The position numbers and the translations under genes are program-made. The notes beneath the pieces are model-generated. The model ran no database searches. It worked only from the letters and a program-made list of their open reading frames with translations, and was not told the origin of the DNA. Positions 2,243-28,255 of a stretch of DNA of 28,255 bases are shown here, in pieces. The stretch's first letter is position 1. The number at the start of each line of letters is the position of its first letter. The DNA comes from Cochliopodium minus (Eukaryota > Discosea > Himatismenida > Cochliopodiidae): the NCBI GenBank assembly GCA_024220525.1, contig JAMYWO010000092.1, forward strand, positions 1 through 28,255. The letters run 5' to 3'.

Positions 2243-2516
2243 TTTTTATTTTTATTTTGTTAAAATTAAACTGAAAATATATAAAAAAAAGGAGGTAAAT
2301 GAAAAAAGGAAAAATATTTTTAATTCGGAATATATAACCTCAATTTTACAATTGTTATTTCATTTGGTGTATTTTGTTTGAAAATCATAAAAACAACACC
2401 AATATGAATATAAAATTATATCAAAAAATATAAAGATTTTTTTTTTTTAACTAACTTGTCGAATATTGGAAACTAATTATTATGTAAAAAATCACATAAA
2501 TTTCCCTAAAAAAAAT
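2243..2516. other. Short intergenic gap, RING gene to tRNA-Asn
   Basis: About 270 bp of AT-rich sequence lies between the start of the RING-coiled-coil gene and the tRNA 3' end. Apart from the tRNA T-run, I see no gene or clear motif. Confidence 0.5.
2508..2515 (-). terminator. Pol III T-run terminator of left tRNA-Asn
   Basis: Eight A residues on the plus strand (T on the transcribed strand) begin two bases after the end of the tRNA acceptor stem. Confidence 0.75.
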
Positions 2517-2588
2517 TCTCCGTGGTGGGATCGAACCACCGACCTCCCGATTAACAGTCGGACGCTCTACCAACTAAGCCAACGGAGA
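2517..2588 (-). tRNA. tRNA-Asn (anticodon GUU)
   Basis: A 72-nt cloverleaf is read on the minus strand: a 7-bp acceptor stem (TCTCCGT with ACGGAGA), a D arm, a 5-bp anticodon stem around loop CTGTTAA with anticodon GTT, and a T arm GGTGG-TTCGATC-CCACC. There is no intron. Eight T residues follow the 3' end on the minus strand (2515-2508), a normal RNA polymerase III terminator. The gene is identical over all 72 nt to the copy at 28172-28243 and lies in the left arm of the inverted duplication. Confidence 0.96.
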
Positions 2589-16140: not shown

Positions 16141-16820
16141 TTAGAGAATGGTGCAGGTACATCCCTTTACATCTTTAACAGGCTTTTGATTCAATCTAAG
16201 TTTTTTGGAGTTAATGTTTTGATTAGGAGTAACATTAGAATCCAAAAGCAATTTGGTGACCTGGCAAAAAGTCTCATTGACATTGGTATTCATTTTGGTA
16301 GAAGTTTCCAAGTACGGCAAATTTAATCTTTTGCGCATTATTTCGATATCTTCTTCGTTTACTTGCCTCAGATCAAATAGATCAGATTTATTTCCTACTA
16401 TGAATATCTTGGTGTTGGGTCTTGAATGTGTTTCTATTTCACTCAACCAATAGTTGATTTTGTTGAAAGAATCTCTATCTGTCAGATCAAACATCAATAT
16501 CAAGGCATCTGCATTTCTATAGTAACTTGTGGTGATTGTATGGAATCTTTCTTGCCCTGCAGTATCAAATACATGAAGTTTAATTTTCTTTCCTTCGACA
16601 TTCATTGTGTTCATTTCTAAAAAAAAAATTAAAAATTAAATTTCCTTTGAAAAAAAAAATAGAGAGTGTGAAAAATGATCTTACTGAAATCTACTCCAAT
16701 GGTGCTCAAATACATCTCAGTGAAATCACATTCCACATATCTATGCAAGAAGCTACTTTTTCCAACTCCTGATTCACCAATTAACAATATTTTGAAAAGA
16801 TTATCGTATTCTTCAATCAT
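16141..16820 (-). CDS. Rab-family small GTPase
   Basis: Two exons, 16820-16685 and 16616-16141 (TAA), join in phase 1 to give 203 residues, a normal Rab length. All nucleotide-binding motifs are present: P-loop GESGVGKSS, switch I STIGVDFK, DTAGQE with [13 protein letters not shown] (Rab1/8/10-like switch II), GNKSD, and ETSTK where ETSAK is usual. The C-terminus CTCTIL gives a CaaX-type box ending in Leu, suggesting geranylgeranylation and membrane attachment. It should act in vesicle transport in the exocytic Rab1/8/10 group, but the exact subfamily cannot be fixed by eye. It is divergent from the acid phosphatase gene. Confidence 0.92.
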
Positions 16821-24387: not shown

Positions 24388-27174
24388 TCAAATGGTTAGT
24401 CTTTCGTCAATATCTTCTAAAGTTTCTTTCAATATATCGTATTTGAGCTTAAAAACAAAAGGGCAGTTCATTTCGTGATTGACAAGATGTTTACCTTTCA
24501 ACTCACCAGATTGGCAACCAAGATGAGAAGCACAACACATTGTAATATGGTTTTCCCATTTGAAGGAATGTTGGTTTTTGTCTTTAAATAAAAGAGTTAA
24601 GTGACAAACGTTACACTCTATTTCTAATTGTCCTATCTCAGAATCCAAATTTGGAGCTGAAGACAATTTACCTAAAAAAAATATAAAAAAAAATATTAAA
24701 GAAATAAAATAAATTTGATAAATAAAAATTTATAAATAAAATAAATTTTATAAAATAATAAATTAAAATAGAAAAATTAATTACCCTTTGAGCAAAAAGC
24801 ACAATCTTGATCAATTTTTGCACATTTGCTGCAGAAACACTTGAAACATACAAAACAGAAAAGAGTTTCTTTGCAGAGTTTGGAGCATTTGTTGCAAAAC
24901 CAGTTGTTATTTACGTTAACAGGATTCCTAACGGTGTATCCATCTTTTGGGGAATCTCTCGACAAATTTTCTATCTTATTTTTAACTTCTTCTATTTTGA
25001 TTTTGGTTTCTTAAAAAAAAAAAAAATAATTTTTTTTTTGAATTTAAAATAATTTTAAAAAATAAAATTAAAAATAATTATAAAACCTTTAATGATGTCC
25101 ATGTGCAGAGTTTTTTCTGGAACGTCCACCAAAAATTCAAATTTCAGTTCACTTTCTGTGACCATAAAATTAAACTCTTTTATTGTTTTGTGGAAATCCT
25201 TTTTTTCAATATCCTATTTAAAAACGAAAATAAAATTAAAATTAAAACAAATGTTAAAAAATTAAAAAAAATAAAAAATAAAAAATAGTATTTAAATAAA
25301 TAAAAAAAAATAATAATATAAAATAAAAAAGATATAAAAAACAAAAAAATATAAAAAAAACAAAAATGGATACCTTATTATTGATTTTGAGACCCTTTAT
25401 CTTCAAGAACTCAAGCTGTACTTTGTCTATGTTAGAATAGATACTGACTAAACCCATTCTACACAGCTTGCATAATTTTACTCCAAAATGAGAAGGAACT
25501 TCCACATCATGTGTCTCTCTTTTTTCTCCTTCGGTAATCTTTAAAAAAAATGTTAATAAAATAATTCAAAAAAAATTTATTTATAAAAAAATTTAAAAAA
25601 ATAAGAATTAAAATCCAAAAAAAAAAATTAATTAATAAAAAAAAATTTATCAAAAAAAATATTTTTAAAAAATTATTCTAATAATAAATTTTTTCAAATA
25701 AAATTTTACAGTAATCGAGAGATTGAGTTTTGTTTCTTTCTGTTTTTTGAAAAAAATTTATTTTATTATTAAAATATTTCTACATCATCATTAATTTCTT
25801 CGTTTACAATTCTCTCTTGTGCATGTTGAGGATCGTTCTTGTTCTCAGTAGCATAAAACTCAATTTTAGAAATGAGATCTTGGCTGATGTTGTTTCCCTT
25901 TGAAAGAAAAATGACCCACAAGTCAGAGTTGTAGTATCTTAGATAATTGAGAAGGATTTTGACATCATCATCCATCAAACCTATTGATTTCAAGTCAACC
26001 CATCTTATCTTTATGTTTGCTTCTGTCTGCTTTTTGTCTATGAACTTTGTAAGTTGTTCGAAAACGTGAATGTAATTTTCTTCGGACAGTTTGTTCTCTA
26101 GATCTATTCCCCATTCCTTTATTGTCAAAACAAAAAAAATAATAATTTGTTAAAATAAATTATAAATGATAAAAGTAAATATCTTACATACTAAACCAAC
26201 GAAAATTTGTGAAATTGTTTGTTAAAAAAATAATGTTTAATTGTTTTTTTTACCCCCTTTTTTATTAAAAAAAAATTAACATCGGAATTAAATCAATAAA
26301 TTGTTGATAAAATACTTACATACTTCAATGAATTAAAATTTTTAAAAAAATTTGTTTAATTTTCAAATGTTTCTTACCAACTTAAAAGAGATTTAAGATT
26401 AAAAATTTTAAAAAAGAAAAAAAATTCTTACCGTCTATTCAATCCAAAGTTAAAAATTGATTTAAAAATTTTCAAAAAAAAAAAATTCTTACATTCTACA
26501 AACCACCAAAATTAGCAAAAAAAAAAAACTGATTTATTTAAATATTACCTTCTACAATTTTCGAAAATGAATTAATTTAAAAATTATTGAAACGGAAAGA
26601 CTTACAACCTATAATAAAGTTTTTGAAAATGATGAAAGAAAAAAAAATTTTATTAAAGTTACATGCTGCGGTTAAATTGTTTTTGTTAGTTTTACAAATG
26701 GAAATTTTATTTGTTTTTGTTTACAATCTTTTGAAATTAAAAATTAAATAAAAAAAAATAGATCAACACAAAAAAATATCTTACAGTCTATTTGGGACAA
26801 TATTAGTTTAATTTTGAATTGAACAAATCAAAAATACTCACAGACTAAAAATAAACAAATTTGAAGGTAAAAAAATAAATAAAAAAATTTATAAAAGGCT
26901 TACTTGCTATATTTGGTGAAATAAAATTAAATATCAGAATTAGAGGATCTTGCGATTCTTTATTTCCAAAAATACTACCACCTATAAAACAAAATATTTT
27001 CAACATTTGCCTAAAACAAAAATAAACGATTTTTATTTTTCATTTTTACCAACTAAAAAAAAAGCATAATCATTAGTTATTATCAAAAATATATGTTTAA
27101 TGTCTAACATTTTGATCGAATATATTGAATAATCTCTCGTCGAATGTATTATTATTGGTTGTATTATTTGTCAT
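24388..27174 (-). CDS. LRR-like / RING-TRAF zinc protein with a one-codon exon array
   Basis: Exon 1 is 27174-27109 (22 codons). Fifteen 3-nt exons follow between 27052 and 26188 (see separate entry), then 26116-25784, 25739-25710, 25538-25374, 25213-25087, 25009-24785 and 24671-24388 (TAA). The total is 424 residues in one frame. Residues 38-148 include a leucine-rich-repeat-like stretch (IRWVDLKSIGLMDDDVKILL, then VIFLSKGNNIS). Residues 294-318 hold cysteines at C294, C297, C307, C310, C315 and C318, spaced exactly as in the gene at 800-2242. A further CNVC pair and a TRAF-like H-C-C-H-C run (HITMCCASHLGC, then NHEMNC) follow. It is likely a ubiquitin-ligase-like or signalling adaptor. A 30-nt exon (25739-25710) follows an intron of only 44 nt. 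The exons from 26116 on are well supported; exon 1 and the array rest on splice signals and phase. Confidence 0.78.
26117..27108 (-). other. Array of fifteen consecutive 3-nt (one-codon) microexons
   Basis: In transcription order the units are TTG 27052-27050, GTG 26981-26979, CAA 26906-26904, TCT 26844-26842, ACT 26787-26785, ATT 26727-26725, CAT 26665-26663, GTT 26608-26606, AAG 26551-26549, AAT 26495-26493, ACG 26434-26432, TTG 26380-26378, TAT 26322-26320, GGG 26256-26254 and TAT 26190-26188. Each is preceded by AG and followed by a donor (mostly gtaag or gtaaa; one gtgag, one gtagt, one gtaat). The sixteen introns measure 51-72 nt. Exon 1 ends and the exon at 26116 begins in phase 0, so the array adds LVQSTIHVKNTLYGY between them. 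The intron bodies do not look like copies of one another. The pattern is seen directly; use as exons is inferred. Confidence 0.8.
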
Positions 27175-27376: not shown

Positions 27377-28000
27377 CTAATTCAATTTTTGAAAGTTTTT
27401 TTTGAGTTTTTCAACATATCCACCTTTCAAAGTTTTTCTCACAAGATCCCCAAATTCCTCCTTGTTTCTCAACATAACAGTTGCAGCCTCATATTCATTA
27501 TCTAAATCTCCTCTGTTAGGCAAAGGATCAAAAGGGTTTGGAGAATGAAACAAGTGGCAAATTCCAATAAAAATAGTACCAAGTCCAAAAGTAGGGTTCC
27601 ATCCTTCTTTCAACAAACTTAAACATACAGCACCATCAAATGTAATATTAGTGTGATAAATGGGAGTAGTTAAACAATATATTTTAGGTCCTAAAAAAGA
27701 AATTCAAAATAAAGAGATTTAAACAAAAAAAAATTTTGTATTACCATCTATTGGGTAAGTATCAGGGATTGCAACTTTAAATTTGTATTTTGCATTTGCC
27801 CAATATCCATCTTTAGTGCAGATGGTAACTATGAATTTTCCCAAATCATTTTTGTTTTCAAACTCAACTTCAATTTCAGGGTAATCTATCATCTCAAATT
27901 CACTCCATTCTTTTTGTAAAATTAAATTTCTTTCCTTGTTGTTTGTTGATTTTTTTTCAATAAATTTTCTTTCTTTTTTAATATTTCTCAGATTAATCAT
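27377..28000 (-). CDS. Ubiquitin-like-conjugating E2 enzyme, UBC12/UBE2F-like
   Basis: Two exons, 28000-27745 and 27690-27377 (TAG), join in phase 1 to give 189 residues. An N-terminal Lys/Arg-rich tail precedes the fold, as in UBC12 (NEDD8 E2). Core landmarks are IPDTYPIDGPKIYC, PIYHTN in place of the usual HPN, and the active-site cysteine in GAVCLSLLKEGWNPT. The C-terminus has NPFDPL, then roughly ten extra residues (PNRGDLDNEY), then EAATVMLRNKEEF, and ends GGYVEKLKKN. CLSLL is as in UBE2F and the GGY tail as in UBC12, so it probably loads NEDD8 onto cullins, though a ubiquitin E2 role is possible. It is divergent from tRNA-Asn, about 170 bp away, and its first third is duplicated at 2759. 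Confidence 0.88.
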
Positions 28001-28171
28001 TTTTTTTTTTTATATTTTAAATTTGTAATTTTCAATATGATTTTAATTATCTTACAAATTGATTGTATTTTTGAATTCAAATTTGAAGTATATACAAAAA
28101 GTTGGTTTTTAAAGAAATTATAGGTATAAAATAATATTCCAATAATATATAAATAAATATAAGAAATTATA

Positions 28172-28243
28172 TCTCCGTTGGCTTAGTTGGTAGAGCGTCC
28201 GACTGTTAATCGGGAGGTCGGTGGTTCGATCCCACCACGGAGA
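28172..28243 (+). tRNA. tRNA-Asn (anticodon GUU)
   Basis: Identical over 72 nt to the tRNA at 2517-2588, on the opposite strand. Acceptor, D, anticodon (loop CTGTTAA) and T arms all pair. At least twelve T residues follow (28244 to the window end), serving as Pol III terminator. Confidence 0.96.
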
Positions 28244-28255
28244 TTTTTTTTTTTT
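28244..28255 (+). terminator. Pol III T-run terminator of right tRNA-Asn
   Basis: An uninterrupted T-run follows the tRNA acceptor stem and reaches the window edge. Confidence 0.75.

Follow-up and report, generated by a model that had tools for sequence, protein, structure and literature searches.

Tandem arrays of putative one-codon exons at ten loci and in two gene families of Cochliopodium minus

The exons of schistosome micro-exon genes (MEGs) measure about 6-36 nt. In the account of these genes that we draw on in part, MEGs carry very small symmetric exons in runs, and the protein shifts by a few residues when such exons are lost or gained; these genes are described as restricted to platyhelminths (PMC4350168). 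The spliceosome can use an exon as short as 1 nt, as in Arabidopsis APC11 (PMC4674806), and isolated 3-nt exons occur in animals, Drosophila homothorax being an example (PMC7392893). In the portions of those sources used here both are single cases, whereas six of the arrays that we describe have 8 to 33 such units in a row. Plant microexons are coding, have 1-15 nt and sometimes come as two adjacent exons, such as one of 5 nt and one of 12 nt in a rice transcript; about half of them are not multiples of three, and the parts of that study considered here describe no long run (PMC8831610). Our literature search on tandem or one-codon exons, which covered few subscription journals, returned isolated 3-nt and 1-nt exons and no tandem arrays.

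The window, that is, the whole stretch of 28,255 nt of Cochliopodium minus DNA that we analysed, is part of contig C92 in an assembly of 44.65 Mb and 598 contigs. Table 1 gives the features of the gene that carries the array. A scan of the minus strand from 27108 to 26117 finds 15 AG-NNN-GT units spaced by 54-75 nt, 14 of them with GTA. The donor is GTAA in 13/15 (GTAAG in 8), and the remaining two donors read gtagta and gtgagt. Units are separated by 14 introns of 51-72 nt and, by position, the first intron of the array has 56 nt and the last 71. Every triplet is flanked by an acceptor AG and a donor GT with an intron of workable length on both sides. The triplets, in the order of the table, are of 13 kinds among 15 units. 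The post-array exon opens with GAA TGG GGA ATA GAT CTA GAG.

Table 1. Features of the array gene in the window (one-codon exons numbered in the direction of transcription)
Feature	Position	Strand	Basis or remark
Exon 1	27109..27174	-	ATG start, 66 nt, MTNNTTNNNTFDERLFNIFDQN, phase 0 end
Array: 16 short introns (51-72 nt) between 15 putative one-codon exons	26117..27108	-	
One-codon exon 1, TTG	27050..27052	-	AG-NNN-GT scan
One-codon exon 2, GTG (possibly 6-nt GTGGTA)	26979..26981	-	AG-NNN-GT scan and parser
One-codon exon 3, CAA	26904..26906	-	AG-NNN-GT scan
One-codon exon 4, TCT	26842..26844	-	AG-NNN-GT scan
One-codon exon 5, ACT	26785..26787	-	AG-NNN-GT scan
One-codon exon 6, ATT	26725..26727	-	AG-NNN-GT scan
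One-codon exon 7, CAT	26663..26665	-	AG-NNN-GT scan
One-codon exon 8, GTT	26606..26608	-	AG-NNN-GT scan
One-codon exon 9, AAG	26549..26551	-	AG-NNN-GT scan
One-codon exon 10, AAT	26493..26495	-	AG-NNN-GT scan
One-codon exon 11, ACG	26432..26434	-	AG-NNN-GT scan
One-codon exon 12, TTG	26378..26380	-	AG-NNN-GT scan
One-codon exon 13, TAT	26320..26322	-	AG-NNN-GT scan
One-codon exon 14, GGG	26254..26256	-	AG-NNN-GT scan
One-codon exon 15, TAT	26188..26190	-	AG-NNN-GT scan
Post-array exon, EWGIDLENKL...	25808..26116	-	phase 0 start; 3' limit by eye
Predicted next exon, ITEGEKRETHD...	25374..25538	-	splice sites by eye
Cysteine-rich exons, same gene as array	24388..25009	-	finger-like CxxC/CxxH spacing; limits approximate

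The first-pass annotation of this DNA had described fifteen units at this spacing, donors that are strong nearly throughout, introns all of 51-72 nt, and flanking exons that meet in phase 0, and each of these observations holds. It had also stated that every unit is exactly 3 nt. That claim stands in so far as the array (27108-26117, minus strand) has no AG-GTA spacing of 1, 2, 4 or 5 bases (of the other spacings, 0 nt occurs once, 6 nt once and 7 nt twice); it is less secure at the ambiguous unit 2, which may have 6 nt.

The nearest known kind of gene is the schistosome micro-exon gene. The two are alike, as far as the cited part of the MEG literature goes, in their runs of tiny exons with symmetric phase. 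They differ in that nearly all units at C92 and the related loci are single codons, and in that the run is confined to a short segment near the N-terminus. The micro-exons of a MEG make up most of the coding region, whereas the C92 array has 15 codons and the next exon alone has 103. A MEG also has a signal peptide and a secreted or membrane product, and C92 exon 1 (MTNNTTNNNTFDERLFNIFDQN), judged by eye, has no hydrophobic stretch or signal peptide. On the points tested, the gene thus falls outside the MEG definition.

We give almost no probability to the explanation that the array is due to chance or is a plain tandem repeat that contains AG...GT. In 1000 dinucleotide shuffles of the C92 array, AG-3-GT has a mean of 1.56 and a maximum of 7 (15 observed), AG-3-GTA a mean of 0.41 and a maximum of 4 (14 observed), and AG-3-GTAAG a mean of 0.016 and a maximum of 1 (8 observed). 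The mean of 0.41 agrees with the roughly 0.4 AG-NNN-GTA units per kb that had been guessed at first pass. Within 27108-26117, a tandem repeat finder detects no repeat with a period of 54-75. Chains of AG-NNN-GT do exist in viral and prokaryote repeats, as we see in a decoy set of DNA loci chosen for matching the pattern (at least 120 viral and at least 118 prokaryote loci, 238 checked), where 47 chains have at least 6 units. Amongst the matches listed, 37 of these 47 chains have 1-3 kinds of triplet, to be compared with the 13 in 15 of C92, and 9 include a stop; the other 10 are mixed, with 4-6 kinds of triplet and 6-9 units. Amongst these listed viral and prokaryote matches, no chain is as long and mixed as the C92 array. 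At the C92 locus, the shuffles together with the paralogues described below rule out chance and a simple tandem repeat.

A genome-wide search for three 3-nt units in a row gives 98 matches (51+47), which we sorted by hand into 81 in ten arrays and 17 elsewhere; by eye, the matches in C40 and C75 are not arrays. A control with the pattern read backward gives 102 matches (60+42), as many as the real pattern, so the raw number of matches proves nothing, and the case rests on the chaining of units, on phase and on the 4-nt pattern. The 4-nt pattern has 18 matches (79 in its backward control), which are scattered or in simple repeats and, by eye, never in arrays of this kind. What the first-pass annotation had presented as a single case is present at ten loci, which belong to two gene families. 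It is a real and striking architecture, and arrays of one-codon exons are its best reading.

Family A includes the window gene (C92) and five others, C86, C134, C193, C322 and C589. All six share one layout, in which a short ATG exon that ends in phase 0 is followed by 8 to 33 one-codon exons, with 33 in C134, and then by a related next exon. Exon 1 has 66, 42, 45, 66, 33 and 63 nt in C92, C86, C134, C193, C322 and C589 respectively, and the AG-3-GTA counts in the same order are 14, 8, 34, 13, 9 and 9, against 0.10-0.88 in shuffles. By eye, exon 1 ends similarly in five of the six genes (..LFNIFDQN, ..KFFKKN, ..FFDFFEIN, ..DLFWDN, ..LFQLFKEN), the exception being C589, which lacks the shared motif and ends in ..LLAKYLT. 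A protein search with the C92 post-array exon retrieves two paralogues. One of them, C86, is 30% identical to the query, and its gene repeats the arrangement with its own ATG exon, an array of eight one-codon units (ATC AAA GGG ATC TGG GGG GAT TCC) and the matching exon. With the C86 post-array exon as query, C92, C186 and C589 are found at E 3e-4 or better and C322 at E 0.0125; C134 and C193 are not retrieved by that query, and a profile of the other five post-array exons matches them at E 4e-6 and E 3e-7 respectively. The C92 post-array exon is thus related to its counterparts in the other five array genes and in C186, and in the alignment of all seven they are 20-35% identical to that of the window. 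C186 has some units of this sort with no clean start and no parser path, and we excluded it from the counts. C88 and C198, two contigs on which the post-array exon has remoter relatives, show no array within the 3 kb read.

Downstream of these exons, the family-A genes carry different modules. C589 has a Roc GTPase domain (PF08477, E 4e-8, above the cut-off), C134 has a weak Roc GTPase match (E 0.0022, below the cut-off), and C86 has a long open stretch that looks like a coiled coil and matches nothing in Pfam. The window gene has the cysteine-rich exons; its "RING/TRAF" label from the first-pass annotation comes from cysteine spacing judged by eye, and two Pfam queries with the gene return no family at E<=1. 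The post-array exon has weak matches to Pfam LRR families in a few of the 7 members (best E 0.02). A fold prediction of this exon has a mean pLDDT of 48, too poor to use.

That the array units are coding one-codon exons has strong support from the sequence. We parsed five arrays with fixed generic splice-site weights, allowing exon lengths of 1-40 and imposing no frame rule. Exactly 3 nt are found in 72/82 of the resulting exons and multiples of three in 80/82, against 14/397 and 111/397 in shuffled arrays, of which 40/100 gave a path. A higher intron cost leaves the real result unchanged, and the shuffles then give 9/421 and 128/421. When longer introns are allowed, C193 has 13/14 exons of 3 nt and one of 9 nt. 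At three loci of the second family, described below, 27/27 exons are of 3 nt. The errors of this parser are a 7-nt exon, a 22-nt exon and a 24-nt exon in C134 where the curated reading has AAA alone; since that 24-nt exon contains a TGA in frame, the 80 multiples of three are not all true. We trained another parser on 32 guessed introns, a weak training set, and it gives 45/66 exons of 3 nt and 52/66 multiples of three, with no path for C193.

The curated set has 121 one-codon units from the ten loci, of which family A contributes 88 and family B 33. The raw family-A scan has 92 units, three of which read TAA. We dropped these three, each of which lies 4 nt past an AAA or GAA unit followed by GTAAGTA, and also an AGA in C134 that we read as inside a 24-nt exon. 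None of the 121 triplets is a stop codon (P of about 0.001 given the composition of the triplets themselves, a value to be used only as a guide because the units of an array are not mutually independent). The longer units of family A have 6 and 9 nt, with one read as 24 nt (C134) and one as 30 nt (C322), all readable in frame. ACA occurs three times amongst the family-A triplets, always as the first codon, in C134, C193 and C322, where it is followed by GAG, GAT and GAG. An initial ACA followed by GAG or GAT is the pattern that one would expect of conserved coding sequence. The one-codon reading offered at first pass is well supported, then, by a layout that five diverged paralogues share, by phase, by the lack of stops and by the parser; it needs amending for the units elsewhere that have 6, 9, 24 or 30 nt.

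The same units could instead be way-stations of stepwise (recursive-type) splicing, in which an intron of 1 kb is removed in steps of 60 nt and the triplets are mostly lost from the mRNA. The regular spacing and the strong donors would suit such a process. GGG is also enriched, with 10/121 array codons (4/10 from C24a, a family-B locus) against 7/1075 codons in neighbouring exons, an excess from which the triplets may also take part in splice-site recognition and which suggests a splice-signal role. Classical recursive splice sites are AG|GT with nothing in between, and over the six family-A arrays AG-0-GTA totals 6 where about 4 are expected. Since the lack of stops, the larger in-frame units and the common start ACA-GAG/GAT also point to coding use, we consider stepwise splicing quite improbable.

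Family B has four loci, two of them on contig C24 (C24a and C24b) and one each on C119 and C532. The family appears to be unrelated to family A. Its downstream protein includes KCxKCxH...HS, then a stretch resembling a coiled coil, and ends in a cysteine-rich part whose spacing is RING-like; one copy searched against Pfam has no match at E<=0.1. The first exon is not clean at two loci. In C532 the first ATG exon is interrupted by a TAA in frame, and in C24a exon 1 has 44 nt, against 45 in C119, and needs another acceptor to keep the frame; these two genes may be broken or may start elsewhere. C119, with 5 units, has by our reading an open frame throughout. The introns of family B are recognisable tandem copies, with a mean identity of 0.83-0.94 (gaps counted). 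In family A, by comparison, the mean pair identity of introns within an array is 0.59-0.65 against 0.56-0.61 when shuffled, barely above chance.

The codons between these near-identical introns vary. Within the four family-B arrays, the introns have p-distances of 0.133, 0.057, 0.139 and 0.140, and the triplets, in the same order, of 0.585, 0.267, 0.778 and 0.674. For the 19 columns of the intron core outside the splice sites, the difference is 0.103 versus 0.604 for the triplets; of 57 three-column blocks of the intron, even the most variable, at 0.488, stays below the triplet value. Over distance classes, the triplets diverge about 7 to 40 times as much as the introns. Most of the decoy chains from viral and prokaryote DNA show the opposite behaviour, with 1-3 kinds of triplet in 37/47. 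Unit pairs whose introns are less than 2% different share the triplet in 9/22 cases, where the intron rate predicts 97%. Of the differing triplet pairs, 4/87 are synonymous. Units with the same triplet tend to have more similar introns (a difference as large as that observed arises in 90/5000 permutations), in keeping with whole units having been duplicated. The arrangement resembles TALE repeats, where a near-constant repeat carries a hypervariable residue pair, in that a near-constant repeat is combined with a variable, informative position. The difference is that the repeat here is an intron, which would be removed, leaving the variable codon only.

Random-looking triplets beside near-identical introns have a direct explanation if mobile introns (introners) were inserted at each codon boundary, the triplets being old coding sequence and never copies of one another. 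Introners are near-identical introns across many genes, and a search that gives a lower bound locates the family-B intron only on C24, C119 and C532, within the arrays. The last exons of C24b and C119 are 97.3% identical over their first 411 aligned bases, yet 0/5 triplets match when counted from the 3' end (the C24b array is partly masked). Random insertion leaves the exact 3-nt spacing unexplained, and the greater intron similarity of units with the same triplet is also at odds with it. We regard insertion by introners as rather unlikely.

The explanation that we favour, and consider probable on the sequence patterns, is that the units are coding exons of one codon each, which multiplied as codon and intron were duplicated together in tandem, and that the codon changes fast. 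The array would consist of coding one-codon exons between minimal spliceosomal introns, of 51-72 nt in C92. In the C92 gene, splicing would add about 15 residues (LVQSTIHVKNTLYGY) between the short N-terminal exon and the weakly LRR-like post-array exon. Tandem duplication of the [codon + intron] unit is supported by the repeats of C24, C119 and C532, and by extension would apply to family A, where the introns have diverged; family B would represent a young state and family A an old one. As every duplication brings in a single codon, the frame is never broken, which accounts for units of 3 nt and not 2 or 4. A tandem genomic duplication that creates a new intron from the copied segment has been described for a potato RdRp gene (PMC4974935); that is, in the part of the report used here, one case, whereas here the units are repeated and each leaves one codon. 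After duplication, the codon would change far faster than its own intron, as the comparison within family B shows. The cause may be selection for difference, purifying selection that acts on the intron, or a mutational process that is targeted. Splicing would probably proceed by intron definition, intron by intron, with each codon joined to the growing exon, a natural guess for introns of about 60 nt. As a guess at function, the array could encode a peptide that serves as a linker or in recognition, and that could be altered in length and in its residues one at a time without damage to the frame, by unequal exchange and possibly by skipping of units.

Skipping could also be the very purpose of the array. 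If any subset of units can be left out in frame, combinatorial splicing as in MEGs would give many peptides per gene. Nearly every unit can be read as a phase 0 multiple of three, so subsets keep the frame and add no stop, and the small symmetric exons of schistosome micro-exon genes provide a precedent, at least in the part of that work cited (PMC4350168). Exact multiples of three are also expected from duplication of units without any skipping, and strong uniform donors fit constitutive use equally well; we hold this purpose to be possible, on the doubtful side. Returning to duplicated one-codon exons, a more speculative extension, which we put forward tentatively from the same sequence comparisons, is a generator of diversity that works codon by codon. 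Each tandem intron would come with a hypervariable codon, unequal exchange would add, delete and reorder codons and leave the frame intact, selection or a targeted process would speed up their change to about 7 to 40 times that of the surrounding intron, the ratio seen in family B, and splicing would write one residue per repeat, with units perhaps skipped freely.

If the arrays are spliced as read, one-codon exons are used 8 to 33 times consecutively, which is beyond current ideas of exon and intron recognition, and splicing is pushed to the smallest coding unit. The arrays would be a natural test case for how the splicing machinery copes with two splice sites that lie three bases apart, and in which order it uses them. 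Whole segments of protein may escape gene finders and read aligners that do not consider 3-nt exons. The arrays also suggest how genes might acquire introns and residues at the same time, always keeping the frame, and a possible way for a peptide to evolve, and perhaps to vary, residue by residue. On the diversity-generator reading, the array peptide would precede modules that range from a Roc GTPase to cysteine-rich exons and a coiled-coil-like stretch, an arrangement that would suit a fast-evolving recognition or self/non-self protein.

Among the one-codon exons of the ten curated array loci, GGG is about 13 times commoner than in the neighbouring coding exons. One unit of the contig C589 array (locus L042), which reads AAAG ATG GCAAGA, seems from its sequence to use a GC donor; it would then form an additional one-codon exon, which is left out of the unit counts. 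Chains of 6-9 AG-NNN-GT units with mixed triplets also occur in decoy loci, viral or prokaryote stretches picked for this pattern as a comparison (L142, L146, L160, L168, L225 and others), where they are probably coding or other repeats.

Beyond the array gene, the window holds the features listed below, of which the putative ubiquitin-conjugating enzyme gene is adjacent to the array gene on its upstream side. Its assignment denotes a resemblance in motifs.

Other features of the window
Feature	Position	Strand	Remarks
tRNA-Asn (GTT) gene	2516-2588	-	near one window end
Open frame, Rab-type small GTPase motifs	16141-16635	-	CTCTIL end
Putative ubiquitin-conjugating enzyme gene	27377-28000	-	one short intron
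tRNA-Asn (GTT) gene	28171-28245	+	near opposite window end

The last exon of family B, the arrays with a different downstream protein, has additional relatives on contigs C220, C7, C336, C102, C11, C90 and C147 and at C589:1563. Downstream of the C589 and C134 arrays, which belong to family A, a region looks MORN-like by eye alone; Pfam gave no match to it in the piece searched. Pfam finds a Roc GTPase 3' of the array, clearly in C589 (L042) and weakly in C134 (L038), and because of these matches some array genes may, by sequence, resemble ROCO proteins.
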